IMG/VR virus record: IMGVR_UViG_3300042509_001557
Span: 1-21,720 of that record
Source of the DNA: a virus
DNA: 21,720 nt
Direction: 5' to 3' (one strand)
Both the position numbers and the translations under genes were made by a program. Shown piece by piece: positions 3,655 through 16,922 of this stretch. The notes under the pieces were generated by a model. The model was not told the origin of the DNA, did not search any database, and worked only from the letters and a program-made list of their open reading frames with translations. Each line of letters begins with the position of its first letter. Positions within the stretch are counted from its first letter, which is position 1.

Positions 3655-4016
3655 TCTACATGGTAGATATTGATCAGACCATCTGTGTAACTCCATGCAC
3701 AGATGGTCGACATCGTTATGAGCTTGCGTGCCCATATCAGTACCGTATTGATCGTATAAATAGTTTGTACGACGAAGGGCATACCATCATTTATTGGACA
3801 GCCCGAGGTTCAGGATCAGGAATCGATTGGACCGAACTTACCAATAAACAACTCAATGATTGGGGCTGCAAGTTCCATGAAGTTCGTCTTGGAAAACCGT
3901 CATACGACGTATGGATTGATGACAAGGCAATGAGTGATGTTGAGTTTTTTAAAAGTGTTGACATCGAGGCGAAGTACGATGACTTTTTAGTAAATGGATA
4001 CAAAAATAATGAATAA
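3651..4016 (+). CDS. Small HAD-superfamily phosphatase, possible sugar-phosphate phosphatase
   Basis: The 121-residue protein shows HAD motifs: VDIDQT at 5-10 (nucleophile D6, acid/base D8), YWTAR with T50, Lys in RLGKPSYD (K82) and the acidic pair D90-D91 in VWIDDKA. It is close to the minimal HAD size, like the capsule or LPS-associated phosphatases. It starts the sugar cassette and overlaps both neighbours. Given the HddA-type kinase and GmhA-type isomerase downstream, the attractive role is removal of the 7-phosphate from heptose 1,7-bisphosphate (the GmhB step). That is inference: true GmhB proteins are longer (about 180 residues), and many small HADs act on nucleotides. A perfect TATAAATA at 3755 lies inside the coding sequence and is probably chance. 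Confidence 0.85.
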   Translation: MIYMVDIDQTICVTPCTDGRHRYELACPYQYRIDRINSLYDEGHTIIYWTARGSGSGIDWTELTNKQLNDWGCKFHEVRLGKPSYDVWIDDKAMSDVEFFKSVDIEAKYDDFLVNGYKNNE

Positions 4017-4998
4017 TCAAGATAAGATTGAACTGAACGAACTGAATAAGGACTCGAATGGTGGAACAGAACTTACCACTCGAAATCTTTTCCACCGACT
4101 TTCAAGTGATGAACTCGATGGTGTCCAAATTATCACTGCTCGCGTCCGCGACCTCGATCCTGACCGAATTAAGATCTATCATTTACATGATCTCGCCGGT
4201 GATCCGGAAGCTTCACACCTTCAAGATCCAGCTTCTCGAGCTCGCTTTCAAAAGTTGGTCTTCAGTTCTAACTGGCAGTATCAACAGTATCGTGATTATC
4301 TTGGAGTTCCATATAGCAATCATTCAACAGTTATCGAAACAGGCATCGAGCCTATTCCACTCGTTGACAAACCAAAGGACAAGATTCGTCTCATTTATAC
4401 GTCCACGCCTCATCGTGGATTGGAGATTCTGGTTCCTGTCTTTTGCGCTCTCGCCGAGAAATATCCTAACATCGAGCTAGACGTATACTCTTCGTTCGGC
4501 ATTTATGGTCCAGGTTGGGAGAGTCGCGACGAAGCGTACAAACCTATCTTCGATCGGATGAAAGAGCACCCACAAATCAACTATCATGGTTGGGCAGATC
4601 AGGAGACAGTCCGTGCCGCATATCAAAAAGCCCACATCTTTGCGTATCCTTGTATCTGGCCGGAAACTTCGTGCAGGTCTCTTATTGAAGCTATGTCAGC
4701 TGGTTGTTTGGCGGTTCATCCTAACTTCTCTGCTTTGGCTGACACGTCGGGTGGGTTGACCGTACAGTATGACGGTGATCATGAGAATCCAAATCTGCAT
4801 GCTAACATCTTTGCACACACTCTGATGTATGCTATTGAGAACGTACAGAATAATGACATTACTAACATGATGTCATTCGTCAAAGCCTACGCAGACACTC
4901 GCTTCGGTTGGGATTCTGTAATTCCCAAGTGGAAGGGACTCATCGCTTCGTTAAAGGAACAACACCGTGATATTGGCCAAAGCACCACTCAGAGTTAG
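4009..4998 (+). CDS. GT4-type (GT-B fold) glycosyltransferase
   Basis: A 329-residue retaining glycosyltransferase. The N-terminal half has NGGTE (17-21) and a Rossmann-like core; the C-terminal donor-binding half has YTSTPHRGLEIL (about 130-141) and the EX7E signature PETSCRSLIEAMSAG with E219 and E227. These families transfer sugars from nucleotide donors to lipids, glycans, proteins or, in some phages, DNA bases. Adjacent heptose-type genes suggest a nucleotide-heptose donor, but the acceptor is unknown. I prefer the ATG at 4009, which overlaps the upstream stop; an in-frame ATG at 3994 is possible and neither has a clear ribosome-binding site. The 3' end overlaps the kinase gene by 32 nt. 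Confidence 0.9.
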   Translation: MNNQDKIELNELNKDSNGGTELTTRNLFHRLSSDELDGVQIITARVRDLDPDRIKIYHLHDLAGDPEASHLQDPASRARFQKLVFSSNWQYQQYRDYLGVPYSNHSTVIETGIEPIPLVDKPKDKIRLIYTSTPHRGLEILVPVFCALAEKYPNIELDVYSSFGIYGPGWESRDEAYKPIFDRMKEHPQINYHGWADQETVRAAYQKAHIFAYPCIWPETSCRSLIEAMSAGCLAVHPNFSALADTSGGLTVQYDGDHENPNLHANIFAHTLMYAIENVQNNDITNMMSFVKAYADTRFGWDSVIPKWKGLIASLKEQHRDIGQSTTQS

Positions 4999-5908
4999 TT
5001 TTTTCGGCGGGGGTAGTGATATCCCCGCCCACTTTGCGCAATGGGGTGGAGCAACCATCTCAACTGCCATCGACAAGTATGTCTATGTAGCAGTCATGCA
5101 TACTCCTCACGACCACATCAAAGTTTCTTATTCGAAACAAGAGTGTGTAGAGAACGTTGAGGATCTTCAGAACGATATTGTCAAGAACGCTTTGAAATTC
5201 TTCGGTATCAAATCCAACATCGAGATCACATCATTCGCAGACATCCCTACGATCGGCAACGGTCTCGGTGGATCGTCTGCTTTTACTTGTGCCTTGATTA
5301 AAGCGCTATCAGCATATCTTGGTTACGAATACGTAAACCCTTATCTCATCGCAAAGACTGCTTGCCACATCGAGATCGATCTATGCGGTTGGAAGATTGG
5401 CATGCAAGATCAGTTTGCATCTGCCTTCGGCGGTATGAACTATATTCAATATTCGAACAGCGGTAATATCACTGTAAAGCGTTTAGATACAATGGGAATC
5501 GAGAATTACATAATCTTGATTCCTACAAACGTAGAGCATCATGCAGCAAAGATTCTTGATAAGATTAACTTCGAAGCCAAGACATTTGTAATTCGTGAGC
5601 TTGCTCATATGGCAGATATGCAAAGCACTCAAGCTGTAAATCCATTTGACTATGGTGGATTGTTGAATGCTGCATGGATATTAAAGAAACAGATGACTGA
5701 AGGCATCTCTTCAGAAGAGATAGATAGTATGTACGATCGATGCCAATCAGCAGAAGCATTCGGATCTAAACTGCTCGGAGCAGGAGGCGGCGGATACATG
5801 CTAGCAATCACAGATCAGAAAAACTTGATCCGCCAAGAATTTTCAGACAGAACGTGCCTCGATGTAGGCATCGCACATGAAGGAGCAAGAGTTGTCTATC
5901 GAGACTGA
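4967..5908 (+). CDS. hddA: GHMP kinase, HddA-type D-glycero-D-manno-heptose 7-phosphate kinase
   Basis: The N-terminus KAPLRVSFFGGGSDIP with TAIDKYVYVAV is the hallmark of the HddA branch of GHMP kinases. The ATP-binding loop is GNGLGGSSAF (97-106), and the C-terminal KLLGAGGGGYM (268-278) is the usual third motif. HddA phosphorylates heptose 7-phosphate at C1 to give the 1,7-bisphosphate used for GDP- or ADP-heptose. The 313-residue length is normal. The start is GTG at 4967, with AAAGGAA at 4954-4960 upstream; no ATG fits the conserved N-terminus. It overlaps the glycosyltransferase (32 nt) and gmhA (32 nt). Other GHMP sugar kinases are possible, but the GmhA neighbour supports the heptose call. 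Confidence 0.9.
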   Translation: MILAKAPLRVSFFGGGSDIPAHFAQWGGATISTAIDKYVYVAVMHTPHDHIKVSYSKQECVENVEDLQNDIVKNALKFFGIKSNIEITSFADIPTIGNGLGGSSAFTCALIKALSAYLGYEYVNPYLIAKTACHIEIDLCGWKIGMQDQFASAFGGMNYIQYSNSGNITVKRLDTMGIENYIILIPTNVEHHAAKILDKINFEAKTFVIRELAHMADMQSTQAVNPFDYGGLLNAAWILKKQMTEGISSEEIDSMYDRCQSAEAFGSKLLGAGGGGYMLAITDQKNLIRQEFSDRTCLDVGIAHEGARVVYRD

Positions 5909-6476
5909 CATTATATTCGATCATATGGGCTTGATTAATATCGGCTTTGCAAGTATCGATCATGAAGAATTTAAAAAGGCAGCCGAACTCATTTGGTTGA
6001 CAAGCATTTCGAATCATCGTAACAACATCTATACAATTGGAAACGGTGCTTCTGCTTCCATCGCTCAGCATTGGGCATGCGACTATACCAAAGGATGTAA
6101 GAAAGGCGGACTGCGACCAAGAGTTATTTCTTTGGCAGCAAATATTCCACTCATGACAGCCGTGGCGAATGACATCTCTTATGATGATGTTTACTCGTTC
6201 CAGCTCGATGCACTCGGGCAAGAAGGCGATGTACTCGTAGCCATTTCTTCGAGTGGTAATTCTCCAAATGTTGTCAAGGCAATTGAGACTGCTAAGTCAT
6301 TGAAAATAAAGACTATTGCTCTGACAGGATTTTCACCAGATAATAAGTGTGCTCAACTCGCAGATATTTCTTTGCACGTTGATATTCAAGAATACGAAGC
6401 AGCAGAAGACGTCCATCAGGCGATCATGCATATGATTGCTAAATATATCAGAACCAGAGGTAAGGTAACTACATAA
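5877..6476 (+). CDS. gmhA: SIS-domain sedoheptulose 7-phosphate isomerase (GmhA-like)
   Basis: A single SIS domain of about 190 residues with the GmhA/DiaA pattern: IYTIGNGASAS (51-61), PRVISLAANIPLMTAVANDISYDDVY (split motif, 81-106), ISSSGNSPNV (123-132), IALTGF (147-152) and EDVHQAIMH (177-185), where H180 aligns with the catalytic His of E. coli GmhA. GmhA converts sedoheptulose 7-phosphate to D-glycero-D-manno-heptose 7-phosphate, the first step of heptose synthesis. The catalytic Glu of E. coli GmhA (HFAEEL) is not obviously kept (HWACDY here), as in some GmhA homologues of hddA clusters. The start is uncertain: ATG 5877 has no good ribosome site, whereas AAGGAG at 5880-5885 sits 6 nt before an in-frame TTG at 5892. 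DiaA is a less likely alternative. Confidence 0.88.
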   Translation: MKEQELSIETDIIFDHMGLINIGFASIDHEEFKKAAELIWLTSISNHRNNIYTIGNGASASIAQHWACDYTKGCKKGGLRPRVISLAANIPLMTAVANDISYDDVYSFQLDALGQEGDVLVAISSSGNSPNVVKAIETAKSLKIKTIALTGFSPDNKCAQLADISLHVDIQEYEAAEDVHQAIMHMIAKYIRTRGKVTT

Positions 6477-7231
6477 TGTCACAACAACCAGTATCGATCC
6501 ATCAGATCCAAGCACAATTCGGCACAGACAGTGGAAACTATGAAGTACTCACTGACGCAGCCATTCGATCAAAAGGTGTAGAAGGTGCGGCAGTCGAGAT
6601 CGGTGTCCGTCTCGGTGGTGGTCTACAACGTATCATCGACGGTCTCGTAGAAAGCGGTCAGACTCCTGAGAAGCCAGTCTTTGGTATTGATCCGTATGGC
6701 AACATCGAATATTATCGTGACGAGATCTTCAAAGAAGGTCGCTGTGACTATACGAATGAGATGCGCGACGTGTGCATGATCAACATGTATCTGTATTGTC
6801 GTCAGAAGAATGTGAATTTCTACATGTTCAACCTCGAAGACACAGAGTTCTTCAATCGTTATGCAGACGGTGTTCCTGTCTATGCAGAGCATAAGAGTCT
6901 TGTCAATAAGTACAGCGTAGTTCACTTCGATGGTCCTCATACGCTCGAAGCGCTTGATACCGAGATTGCGTTTTTCCTTGAACGATCAGATCCTGGCGCA
7001 GTCTTCGTCTTCGATGACGTAGAGATGTACGAACACGATGCTGTGCACAATCAATTGCTCGAGTATGGTATGGAAACGGCAATGGAAACTTCTCGTAAGT
7101 GGTCATATGTCAAGAAGGAACATATCGACAAAAAGTGGGAACCGGTCGTTGGAACTCCTGGTTGGGAGCCAAACGCAGAGCAGTACACGCCAAAGGGTGG
7201 TCCAAGTTTTAATTATAAAATCGACCTATGA
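6476..7231 (+). CDS. Class I SAM methyltransferase-like protein, end of the sugar cassette
   Basis: A 251-residue protein with Rossmann-type methyltransferase features: AAVEIGVRLGGGLQ (39-51) fits the glycine-rich SAM loop, FGIDPYG (69-75) the acidic end of strand 2, and VVHFDGPHTLEALDTEIAFF (about 148-167) then GAVFVFDDVE (174-183) resemble the TylF/Methyltransf_24 type of small-molecule or sugar methyltransferases. It starts in a TAATG overlap with gmhA and ends the cluster, just before a promoter element. A role in O-methylation of the transferred sugar is a reasonable guess. Substrate unknown. The family assignment is from pattern only, and a cephalosporin-hydroxylase-like relative is possible. 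Confidence 0.7.
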   Translation: MSQQPVSIHQIQAQFGTDSGNYEVLTDAAIRSKGVEGAAVEIGVRLGGGLQRIIDGLVESGQTPEKPVFGIDPYGNIEYYRDEIFKEGRCDYTNEMRDVCMINMYLYCRQKNVNFYMFNLEDTEFFNRYADGVPVYAEHKSLVNKYSVVHFDGPHTLEALDTEIAFFLERSDPGAVFVFDDVEMYEHDAVHNQLLEYGMETAMETSRKWSYVKKEHIDKKWEPVVGTPGWEPNAEQYTPKGGPSFNYKIDL

Positions 7232-14412: not shown

Positions 14413-14850
14413 ATGAAGAATTTTATCGCTCTAGCATTAGTCATGCTAGCAACTCCAGCAATTGCTCAGAAAACACCCGTTGGTGTAACCTATGATGCAA
14501 AGATCGTTCGAGCAATTGATGGAGATACGATTGTCATCGAGGCACCATACTTACCAGCTCCGCTCAAGCCTGAACTCGGCGTTCGTATCTTTGGTGTTGA
14601 TACTCCAGAAAAAAGCTTTCGTGCCAAGTGCGAGAGCGAAAAGAAGCGTGGAGAGCAAGCTTCTGTTTTTGTCAAAGATGTAATTGCTGGTACGAAGAAA
14701 CATCAGGTTGTTCTATATGATTGGGACAAGTTTGGTGGCCGTGTACTCGGTGACATTCTGCTTGACGGCATGAGCCTTCGCGATCTGCTTATTAAGAACA
14801 GCTTTGCTCGAGCATATTTCGGAGATGCAAAACAGTCTTGGTGCAATTAA
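14413..14850 (+). CDS. Exported staphylococcal-nuclease-like thermonuclease
   Basis: A 145-residue protein with a signal peptide (MKNFIALALVMLATPAIA, cut after about residue 18) and an SNase domain. Its active-site set is complete by alignment with staphylococcal nuclease: AIDGDT (D36, D38), VRIFGVDTPEKS (R58, D63, T64, E66) and FGGRVLG (R110). SNases cut DNA and RNA to 3'-phosphates and need calcium. Export predicts a periplasmic or secreted enzyme; an intriguing possibility is destruction of incoming phage DNA or scavenging of DNA, but this is inference. AAGGAAA precedes ATG 14413. Its stop overlaps promoter element 6. Confidence 0.93.
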   Translation: MKNFIALALVMLATPAIAQKTPVGVTYDAKIVRAIDGDTIVIEAPYLPAPLKPELGVRIFGVDTPEKSFRAKCESEKKRGEQASVFVKDVIAGTKKHQVVLYDWDKFGGRVLGDILLDGMSLRDLLIKNSFARAYFGDAKQSWCN

Positions 14851-14891
14851 GCATGTACAATTAAAGAAAAACATTGTATATATAGTATATC
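14845..14891 (+). promoter_or_regulatory. ACATGTACA-type promoter element 6, in front of the tmRNA
   Basis: AATTAAGCATGTACA (14845-14859; one change, A to G, in the core) overlaps the thermonuclease stop. A TATA-rich stretch follows: TATATC at 14886-14891 is 26 nt after the box, with TATAGT at 14881 as an alternative -10. Transcription would begin around 14897, at the beginning of the tmRNA acceptor piece. Confidence 0.5.
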
Positions 14892-14953
14892 AGTTGTTGA
14901 CAATCAACAATAAAGGCGGAAAGACCGGGGTTCGACTCCCCGCACCTCCACCA

Positions 14954-15036
14954 TCTACTATGCATTAATCCGGATACGGTTATAATCGTATCCCGAACAT
15001 GCCAGGAAGCCGAAGCGTGTTTGCATAGTAGATGAT
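14954..15036 (+). other. Intervening segment of the permuted tmRNA, removed on processing
   Basis: Between the encoded ACCA and the 5' GGGGGTG lie 83 bases whose ends are perfectly complementary: TCTACTATGCA (14954-14964) with TGCATAGTAGA (15022-15032), continuing the acceptor stem. An inner hairpin GGATACG/CGTATCC is at about 14973-14993. This is the loop expected to be cut out by RNase P and 3' processing enzymes to give two RNA pieces. Confidence 0.85.
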
Positions 15037-15117
15037 GGGGGTGACCTTGGAATTCGATTTTCGTGTAATAGGGCGGTTCGAGACTGATTGCCTGGCAAAG
15101 TGCCACTAAACATAAAT

Positions 15118-15162
15118 GCTAACGATAACGATAGCTTTGCAGATATCCGCCTAGCGGCATGA
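15118..15162 (+). other. tmRNA proteolysis-tag reading frame
   Basis: From the resume codon GCT at 15118 the frame reads ANDNDSFADIRLAA and ends at TGA (15160-15162). The ANDN start and LAA end are standard for tmRNA tags recognised by ClpXP and related proteases; rhizobial tags as I recall them (ANDNYAEARLAA) share ANDN and RLAA. The resume position is inferred from the tag, since it is set by structure and upstream bases. Confidence 0.85.
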
Positions 15163-15208
15163 TCTACACGGGTATGGCTCCACCTTGGAACAGAACGGGC
15201 CACTTGCT

Positions 15209-15256
15209 ACCAGTTGAATCTCTGGTGCTACGAGTCACCAGAAAAACCGCTGGTGG
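15209..15256 (+). other. Four alternating complementary segments near the tmRNA 3' end
   Basis: ACCAG (15209-15213), CTGGTG (15222-15227), CACCAG (15236-15241) and CTGGTGG (15250-15256) can pair in competing ways: the middle two as a hairpin, or 1-2 and 3-4 as successive hairpins, or 1-4 around the central hairpin. This may be a tmRNA pseudoknot or helix, or a 3'-end signal for the coding piece. Confidence 0.5.
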
Positions 15257-15259
15257 TAG

Positions 15260-15267
15260 TATAAATA
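15260..15267 (+). promoter_or_regulatory. T4-type late promoter octamer TATAAATA upstream of the endolysin
   Basis: This is a perfect late-promoter core, in noncoding DNA just after the tmRNA. The transcript would start at about 15273 and run through a leader hairpin and a small frame into the SleB-like endolysin gene at 15522, a gene expected to be late. It also marks a natural boundary for the tmRNA 3' end. Confidence 0.55.
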
Positions 15268-15521: not shown

Positions 15522-16100
15522 ATGAAACTTTTCGAAACTAGAAAAGATTTCCCGTATCTACGCTGGGCCGAAGGCTTTGTCATAGGTATCATTGCAGTAA
15601 CAGGCGTGGCTTTGGCTACACCAAACAAAGAACCTGAAGTCAAGATCGTAAAGGTCCCAGTCATTCAGGTAATCGAAAAAGAAAAGGTCGTAAAGAAGCC
15701 AGTCTATCTGAGCAACTACGACAAAAAACAAATCCAATGCATGGCCGAGAATACATACTTCGAAGCAGGCCATGAACCTTATAAAGGTAGGATTGCGGTA
15801 AACAATGTTGTTTTGAACCGCGCAAAAGACGATCGTTTCCCAAGCACGCCATGTGGAGTTATCAATCAGAGAACTGCGCGCGTATGCCAATTTTCATGGA
15901 AGTGTGAGGGTGGAAAAAGAATTCGTGACGGTGTAGCTTTTGCAAAATCAAAGGAAATCGCCGAACATGTGTATCTCGGAAATTACGGTGACGTAACAAA
16001 GGGAGCAAAGTTTTACCACGCTGACTACGTAAGTCCGTCATGGGGTAGAGTGTTTGCTCGTACGACTAAGATTGGTGCACACATTTTTTATAGAGGATGA
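15522..16100 (+). CDS. SleB-like cell-wall hydrolase, probable membrane-anchored (SAR-type) endolysin
   Basis: Residues 1-16 are charged, followed by one weakly hydrophobic span rich in Gly/Ala (GFVIGIIAVTGVALA, 18-32), then a Val/Lys linker and a Hydrolase_2 (SleB) domain from about 70. The domain shows CMAENTYFEAGHEPYKGRIAVNNVVLNRAKDDRFPSTPCGVI, where E81 of YFEA is the expected catalytic Glu, and QFSWKCEGG. The weak, Gly/Ala-rich N-terminal span is typical of signal-arrest-release endolysins, which start membrane-tethered and become active when released. AGAGGAAG precedes ATG 15522. This is the best endolysin candidate in the window; no holin is evident next to it. The gene is likely late, from TATAAATA at 15260. 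Confidence 0.87.
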   Translation: MKLFETRKDFPYLRWAEGFVIGIIAVTGVALATPNKEPEVKIVKVPVIQVIEKEKVVKKPVYLSNYDKKQIQCMAENTYFEAGHEPYKGRIAVNNVVLNRAKDDRFPSTPCGVINQRTARVCQFSWKCEGGKRIRDGVAFAKSKEIAEHVYLGNYGDVTKGAKFYHADYVSPSWGRVFARTTKIGAHIFYRG

Positions 16101-16104
16101 TATT

Positions 16105-16350
16105 ATGGTGGACGACGTCATTTCAACGAAAGCATTGACTTCTGAAAAGTTCATTAAAGAAATTGAACGACTGGTTATTAATTATGATTTAGATTATATG
16201 GATGCCGTCGTCCACTATTGTGAAAAGAATAACATCGAGATCGAGGCTGCTGCGAGTATCATTCGTAGTAACATTCGTATCAAGGCAAAGCTTCAAGACG
16301 AAGCAGAAGAACTCAACTTCATGCCAAAGAGGGCTAAGCTACCAGTATGA
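16105..16350 (+). CDS. 33: gp33-like late transcription coactivator
   Basis: An 81-residue protein with TSEKFIKEIERLVINYDLDYMDAVVHYCEKNNIEIEAAASII, then RIKAKLQDEAEELNFMPKRAKLPV. This pattern matches the short gp33 proteins of T4-like cyanophages as I remember them. Its position directly before genes 59 and 32, as in T4, supports the call. In T4, gp33 binds the RNA polymerase flap and, with the sliding clamp and gp55, activates late promoters. I chose ATG 16105, since the longer frame from 16054 lies inside the endolysin gene; AGAGGATG is upstream. The stop overlaps gene 59 (ATGA). Confidence 0.82.
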   Translation: MVDDVISTKALTSEKFIKEIERLVINYDLDYMDAVVHYCEKNNIEIEAAASIIRSNIRIKAKLQDEAEELNFMPKRAKLPV

Positions 16351-16922
16351 CTCCATTCGAGAGCTACACCACTTTCCTCGCCCTTAAAAACCACTTCACA
16401 ACAGACAGCTATGACTACATCAAATACAACGGCAAGATAGGCGCAAAGCCTTCGAGCTTTGATGTACGTAAGGACAAGTATCAGTTCTATAAGTTGTCGA
16501 AACATAAAGATCCACTCAAATATCTTGTTGCCAACTTTGTAGATGGCGATTTAAAATGGATAGGCGATCTGTTCGGCGATGACTCAGAGAAAGTGTACAA
16601 TGAATGGTTGAAGAGACAGCAGTCTCTTTCTTATATCTTCGAAGAAGACGTAAAAAAACTATGTACAAATTTCAATGATTGTGTTATTGTAAAGAATGGG
16701 CAACATCCCTTCTTACTGAAACAATATCTTCGTCGAGAGATTTCTATCGAGACGGTGATTATCCTCAATGATATCTTCGGGTTCTTCGGTCATTGGAACA
16801 AGAAGATTGAGGATGGTGTCCTATGGCCCAGCATCCACAAGAAGCTGCTGAAGTATAAGCCTTTCTTTCATTATGATGCATTTAAATGTAGAAAAATTGT
16901 CAAGGCTGCCTTTACTTCATGA
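16347..16922 (+). CDS. 59: gp59-like replicative helicase loader
   Basis: A 191-residue protein that can be aligned by eye with T4 gp59: YDYIKYNGKIGAKPSSFDVRKDKYQFYKLS matches the YDVIKYN...KRRDKYFFQKLS block of T4, and LVANFVDGDLKWIGDL and the later SIETVIILNDIFGFF correspond to further T4 blocks. gp59 loads the gp41 helicase on gp32-coated DNA at forks. The order 33-59-32 matches T4. It starts in an ATGA overlap with 33. Its length (191) is a little below T4 gp59 (217). An ATGTACA at 16661 inside it is not a promoter element. Confidence 0.9.
   Translation: MTPFESYTTFLALKNHFTTDSYDYIKYNGKIGAKPSSFDVRKDKYQFYKLSKHKDPLKYLVANFVDGDLKWIGDLFGDDSEKVYNEWLKRQQSLSYIFEEDVKKLCTNFNDCVIVKNGQHPFLLKQYLRREISIETVIILNDIFGFFGHWNKKIEDGVLWPSIHKKLLKYKPFFHYDAFKCRKIVKAAFTS

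Follow-up and report, generated by a model that had tools for sequence, protein, structure and literature searches.

The window, a viral record 21,720 bases long that derives from a metagenome, carries a circularly permuted tmRNA gene on its + strand (14889-15205). We regard it as a functional phage-encoded two-piece tmRNA gene with a ribosome rescue role exerted via host SmpB, and put the probability of this reading at roughly 0.8; it builds on the gene itself, its structure and conservation, its promoter layout and its locus. The gene is of a known kind, around which the newer points are the pairing of the spacer ends, the recombining halves and an HNH-like gene in the spacers of relatives.

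A Permuted tmRNA Gene of the Alanine Type

ARAGORN called a circularly permuted tmRNA (tmRNA*) at 14858-15253 on the + strand, with the tag ANDNDSFADIRLAA*. The Rfam models RF04321 (tmRNA_permuted; 14892-15162, 89 bits versus a cut-off of 47, E = 3.2e-16) and RF01849 (alpha_tmRNA; 14850-15204, 54.2 bits versus a cut-off of 50) matched as well. A reading made from the sequence only had proposed a permuted two-piece tmRNA and suggested these ARAGORN and covariance-model searches, and the agreement between ARAGORN and RF04321 bears it out. The parts of the gene, read by eye and then rechecked by script, are as follows.

14889-14953, +, acceptor piece (3' tRNA-like half) including a 5' hairpin; 5' end placed from the promoter position
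14916-14922, +, P2 strand of the acceptor piece
14926-14942, +, T arm CGGGG-TTCGACT-CCCCG, read directly
14943-14949, +, 3' acceptor strand CACCTCC, read directly
14950-14953, +, encoded ACCA, read directly
14954-15036, +, spacer of 83 nt, presumably excised; its ends pair, prolonging the acceptor helix in the precursor
15037-15205, +, coding piece (acceptor strand, D-loop-like segment, P2 strand, tag region, 3' helix); 3' end approximate
15037-15043, +, 5' acceptor strand GGGGGTG, read directly
15048-15057, +, D-loop-like TGGAATTCGA, read directly
15058-15064, +, P2 strand of the coding piece
15118-15162, +, tag reading frame ANDNDSFADIRLAA with stop TGA, from ARAGORN and the script recheck

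The 3' tRNA-like half is thus encoded ahead of the 5' half and the tag frame, the order that defines a permuted tmRNA. All seven acceptor pairs form, the third being G-U, and the CCA is encoded; a G-U third acceptor pair is the mark of alanine. Direct reading and the script therefore uphold the earlier claim of seven complementary pairs, a G-T third pair and an alanine type. The tag frame has an alanine resume codon, a stop and an -AA end. The span first proposed, 14892-15257, was right as to the gene and probably off at both ends. Judged from the promoter, the 5' end of the transcript is probably near 14889, and the likely 3' end of the coding piece is near 15204-15205, not 15253-15257: the RF01849 match stops at 15204, and the stretch that the two tag-region copies of a related contig (L206) have in common stops at the equivalent of 15205.

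A Fixed Locus in T4-Like Phages

The genes for gp33, gp59 and gp32 downstream of the tmRNA mark the window as part of a T4-like phage genome, from a virus of aquatic bacteria; its earlier assignment to the T4 superfamily holds. The nearest genes are listed below. Elsewhere in the window, 3994-7231 is a possible sugar-modification cluster (glycosyltransferase, GHMP kinase, SIS-domain protein and methyltransferase).

14413-14850, +, SNase-like nuclease, upstream neighbor (Pfam PF00565, E = 1.5e-8; phrog_452 endonuclease, E = 2e-16)
15522-16100, +, cell wall hydrolase, downstream neighbor (Pfam PF07486, E = 1.6e-23)
16096-16350, +, gp33-like late transcription regulator (phrog_254, E = 1.4e-17)
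16347-16922, +, gp59-like helicase loader (phrog_269, E = 5.3e-57)

A gp59 search of the viral collection gave 321 relatives, of which the best 80 were used. In 57 of these 80 the sequence extends 1950 nt or more upstream of gp59, and a permuted tmRNA lies there in 57/57, a count that includes many close relatives and not 57 independent cases. ARAGORN found 51, and Rfam added the six that ARAGORN missed (L171, L174, L179, L185, L191 and L192). Among loci outside the 57, with 1500-1949 nt upstream of gp59, L195 has a tmRNA, L154 has the tag at its very edge, and L160 (1596 nt) gave no Rfam match.

A phage two-piece tmRNA at this locus is already known: PMC9004378 reports one, in 2022, for Methylophilales phage Melnitz, which reduces the novelty implied by the first reading. 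The same paper counts 53 two-piece forms among 133 unique phage tmRNA structures by ARAGORN, and PMC11915505 gives a list of 79 tmRNA sequences from phages along with a description of RF04321. The ssrA of Melnitz (MZ577097, gene 86), confirmed by both ARAGORN and Rfam, is like the window's a permuted alpha-type tmRNA (RF04321, 113.4 bits; RF01849, 106.7 bits). The annotated Melnitz record gives the same locus, made up of PhoH, PDDEXK nuclease, SsrA, gp33, gp59 and ssDNA-binding protein, and we confirmed a PDDEXK nuclease in both Melnitz and the window. The two also share pairing spacer ends (stem score 9 in Melnitz) and a likeness upstream of the tmRNA, where Melnitz has TTGACA and TATAAATA. 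They differ in tag (ANDNYVPVDYALAA in Melnitz versus ANDNDSFADIRLAA), in T-loop type (GGGGGCAGTACCC versus TTCGA) and in the other genes between nuclease and tmRNA; Melnitz also has a glutamine riboswitch match beside its tmRNA, whereas the window has none at the gathering score.

Permuted tmRNAs also occur in Ruegeria phage RpAliso (OR257569; L352, 2441-2784) and Caulobacter phage phiCbK (NC_019405; L353, 1447-1886), with ARAGORN calls and RF04321 scores of 129.5 and 71.4 bits, respectively; neither record table has a tmRNA feature. RpAliso shares 34 identical bases with the window over the T arm and acceptor strand. Unlike the window, both belong to other phage groups, have tRNA genes nearby and carry other tags. 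A GOLLD RNA match lies near the phiCbK tmRNA.

Covarying Helices and a Precursor Stem

Covariation was examined in 117 tmRNA rows drawn from the loci, 64 of them unique; rows were admitted if they began with ATCAG, ended with TCCACCA, paired fully in the acceptor stem and had TCGA after the stem and an AACGA-type tag start. Acceptor pairing, like U70, is not independent evidence here because it was part of this selection; only the T stem, P2 and G3 are independent of it. The five pairs of the T stem are paired in 64/64 unique rows, in C-G, G-C and A-T versions with both sides changing. P2, the helix between the pieces (14916-14922 with 15058-15064), is paired at each position in 56 to 64 of the 64 rows and likewise covaries, both strands changing. 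All 117 rows have G at position 3, though the selection also permitted A. Near the tag, the consensus fold has one covarying 3' helix; such folds cannot display pseudoknots.

Among relatives in one listed group, spacer length ranges between 3 and 157 nt, but the ends of the spacer still pair. For 72 unique viral spacers, the precursor stem scored a mean of 8.56 with matched ends versus 1.86 with swapped ends, the top of 200 swaps reaching 2.58. This set drew on every collected viral permuted tmRNA with a spacer of 24 nt or more, other phage groups included; all rows were retained, even the eight with a score of 0, which in at least five cases comes from a mis-set spacer start in the script. 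The stem is common to window-type phages and cellular permuted tmRNAs, where 14 unique spacers scored 7.07 matched versus 2.48 swapped (top swap mean, 4.93). The window's acceptor strands and spacer ends (14943-15043) fold as one long helix (−52.2 kcal/mol, z = −8.77, with 0/200 shuffles as good). Together these data suggest a stem general to permuted tmRNA precursors, which may have been described in older literature.

Some relatives have merely 3-5 nt between the CCA and the coding piece (L008, which is the L138 contig, L148, L078 and L091). Others, namely L017, L064, L101, L089, L057 and Melnitz, have small reading frames in the spacer, which we do not claim as genes. Those of L017, L064, L101 and Melnitz (L341) follow ribosome-binding-like sites, and those of L017, L064 and L101 are cysteine-rich. 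A Pfam search of the L017, L089 and Melnitz frames yielded nothing accepted (L017 was sub-threshold at 0.061), and a PHROGs search of the L017 and Melnitz frames gave no match.

Promoter Layout

Promoter-type motifs lie on either side of the gene.

14854-14884, +, promoter: -35 TGTACA (14854-14859), 17-nt spacer, -10 TATATATA (14877-14884)
15260-15267, +, TATAAATA before the downstream genes, which we take to be a T4-type late promoter motif

The -10 box of the window begins 12 nt ahead of a conserved ATCAGTTG. Across 33 unique contexts, a TATAWATA box precedes ATCAGTTG in 30, at 12 nt in 28 and at 13 nt in two. A -35 hexamer stands 17 nt before TATA[ACT]ATA in 33 of 38 unique upstream stretches (TGTACA in 18, TTGACA in 10, TTGACT in five); the remaining five have another hexamer (two) or no such box (three). 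Given this layout, the predicted 5' end of the acceptor piece would be the transcription start. At first, the TATAWATA box was taken as a T4 late promoter; a sigma70-type promoter fits better given the -35 hexamer at 17 nt in 33/38, and both may be present before the tmRNA. The window holds three copies of TATAAATA versus 0.88 expected, an excess that is weak on its own since 8 of 100 shuffles reach three. Melnitz ssrA is placed after an early promoter in PMC9004378.

Tags, Halves, and Origin

In the viral collection, 58 stretches contain the tag ANDNDSFADIRLAA, with an intact frame ending in LAA, and the tag DNA is identical in 64 of the 78 ARAGORN rows that have it, rows that include repeated loci of the same contig. 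Four tags, ANDNDSFADIRLAA among them, are each combined with two or three types of T loop, and every main T-loop type is in turn found with several tags; the acceptor and coding halves therefore recombine between phages. L206 (3804-4286; the L157 contig) has a complete tmRNA, then an inserted reading frame, and after these the tag region again as a partial second copy; the inserted frame continues into this tmRNA remnant, an arrangement that looks like recombination. The inserted frame had no match in Pfam or PHROGs.

By its Rfam matches, the window tmRNA is classed as alphaproteobacterial, and it resembles the permuted tmRNAs of Alphaproteobacteria (RF01849, RF04321) in gene order, tRNA-like domain and ANDN-type tag. 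It differs from them in its tag, which an exact degenerate pattern search found in none of 84,980 species genomes, and in falling in a tree group of 19 viral rows without a cellular row. A BLAST search of 385 genomes from a single class with 14889-15206 as query, with at most two candidates scored per genome among the matches listed, matched nine at E ≤ 0.001, the genome-side matches being 28 to 56 bases long; the nine include the genome used as center. No donor was found by this search, whose sensitivity for distant relatives is low: the query matched only two of five genomes chosen for having a permuted tmRNA.

The cellular tmRNAs were gathered by one exact pattern, ATAAATGCNAACGATAAC (103 stretches), which biases the cellular sample. 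The tree, on 153 of 283 columns, had 87 rows: 19 of the window group (18 of them a random draw), 18 other viral, 47 cellular and three isolates. Rows received their group label from a short motif, wherever it lay in the locus, and three rows that look mislabeled (L061, L002 and L053) fall among the other viruses. The 19 viral rows around the window include Melnitz and have a support of 91/99, which is not starred; the smallest starred set with the window has 43 rows, comprising all viral rows and three Microvirga rows. Melnitz and others sit on long branches. A single phage origin of the tmRNA is not proved by this tree. The proposal that the phage took the gene from its host is not supported, given the tag search, the short BLAST matches and the virus-only tree group, nor is a recent capture.

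How the RNA Would Act, and Rival Explanations

The probable course of transcription, processing, charging, rescue and benefit can be sketched from established tmRNA knowledge. A sigma70-type promoter would start the precursor at about 14889, and in the folded precursor the spacer ends would extend the acceptor stem. Once host RNA-processing enzymes had removed the spacer, the acceptor stem and helix P2 would hold two RNAs together: the acceptor piece, some 65 nt long with CCA at its end, and the coding piece of some 170 nt. The G3-U70 pair would allow charging by host alanyl-tRNA synthetase; the charged tmRNA would then enter a stalled ribosome together with host SmpB, add alanine plus ANDNDSFADIRLAA and free the ribosome, and the tagged protein would go to ClpXP-type proteases. 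The likely benefit is that ribosomes are kept free during the breakdown of host DNA and mRNA. Ribosome rescue, as first proposed, is thus supported as the likely role.

A phage smpB, which the sequence-only reading suggested looking for, was found in none of 11 records, any of them possibly incomplete, by a PF01668 search of the window and 10 longer related contigs (the longest 128,766 bases); the same search found smpB in 10 of 14 control genomes. Function of the tmRNA would therefore depend on the host, and missing smpB is what is expected if host SmpB is used, though the contigs may be incomplete. The same result would also suit an RNA that acts as a decoy, binding SmpB or the ribosome and blocking host trans-translation in the manner of the tRNA-like-only tmRNA of mycobacteriophage DS6A, a type of molecule that strongly inhibits tmRNA, perhaps by SmpB titration, according to PMC4131195 and PMC11915505. 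We consider a decoy unlikely: unlike DS6A, 58 viral stretches retain the whole tag frame with its stop codon and LAA end, and the tmRNA helices covary.

Less probable still is that the gene is a non-functional host copy, either decaying or carried as a passenger. The partial tag-region copy in L206/L157 would suit such decay, which is strongly disfavored by covariation, with compensatory changes in the T stem, P2 and the precursor stem, as well as by the fixed promoter spacing and the presence of the tmRNA in all 57 testable loci. That host DNA was misassigned as viral is a thought invited by the metagenomic source of this 21,720-base record, and we give it almost no weight, for in many contigs the tmRNA has phage genes on both sides, the isolate Melnitz has one at this same locus, and the tag ANDNDSFADIRLAA is in none of the genome collection. 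A functional two-piece tmRNA working with host SmpB is the reading we retain.

HNH-Like Genes in the Spacers of Relatives

The Rfam tmRNA matches in L171 and L192 span 659 and 687 nt because an HNH-type reading frame lies in the spacer, with a TATAWATA motif ahead of it.

L171, 4267-4738, HNH-type ORF locus in the tmRNA spacer
L192, 1174-1679, HNH-type ORF locus in the tmRNA spacer

Both frames match a PHROG homing endonuclease family (E = 1.8e-11 for L171, 2.2e-13 for L192); the Pfam HNH score narrowly passes the cut-off for L192 and falls short of it for L171. Scanning with the L192 protein turned up 29 loci, in 11 of which tmRNA halves flank the HNH frame (ten by our own scan, L356 by Rfam). 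The further loci are L355, L356, L357, L358, L359 and L361-L365, the last five sharing one allele; with L171 added, eight different tmRNA alleles have an HNH frame. Rfam gave no match on L357 and a match that does not span the frame on L358. L360 and L380 begin inside the HNH frame and were left unjudged; no tmRNA was seen by our own scan in the other 16 of the 29, nor by Rfam in the nine of these also scanned with it. TATAWATA lies 23-41 nt into the spacer in eight HNH spacers (seven alleles) and in L356, and those eight keep the precursor stem (scores 8-11; swapped mean 3.6). The 83-nt window spacer has no HNH gene. We found no description of HNH genes in permuted tmRNA spacers in the open-licence literature.

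The HNH-like protein may home. We tentatively propose, at well under even odds, that the permuted tmRNA gene is an intron-like landing site, at which homing with co-conversion of the flanks spreads and shuffles the halves, the window being an endonuclease-free allele. On this proposal, mobile genes could sit in the spacer unharmfully because the spacer is cut out of the RNA.

Implications

A T4-like aquatic phage group, here almost solely metagenomic, is confirmed to carry a full ribosome-rescue RNA at a fixed locus, and trans-translation therefore seems useful to the phage. The pairing of the spacer ends with compensatory change, in phages and in the sampled cells, bears on how the two pieces are made. 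A spacer housing HNH endonuclease genes would be the counterpart of an intron site without the need of splicing, and if the landing-site proposal is true, tags and combinations of halves arise in these phages that the sampled cells lack.
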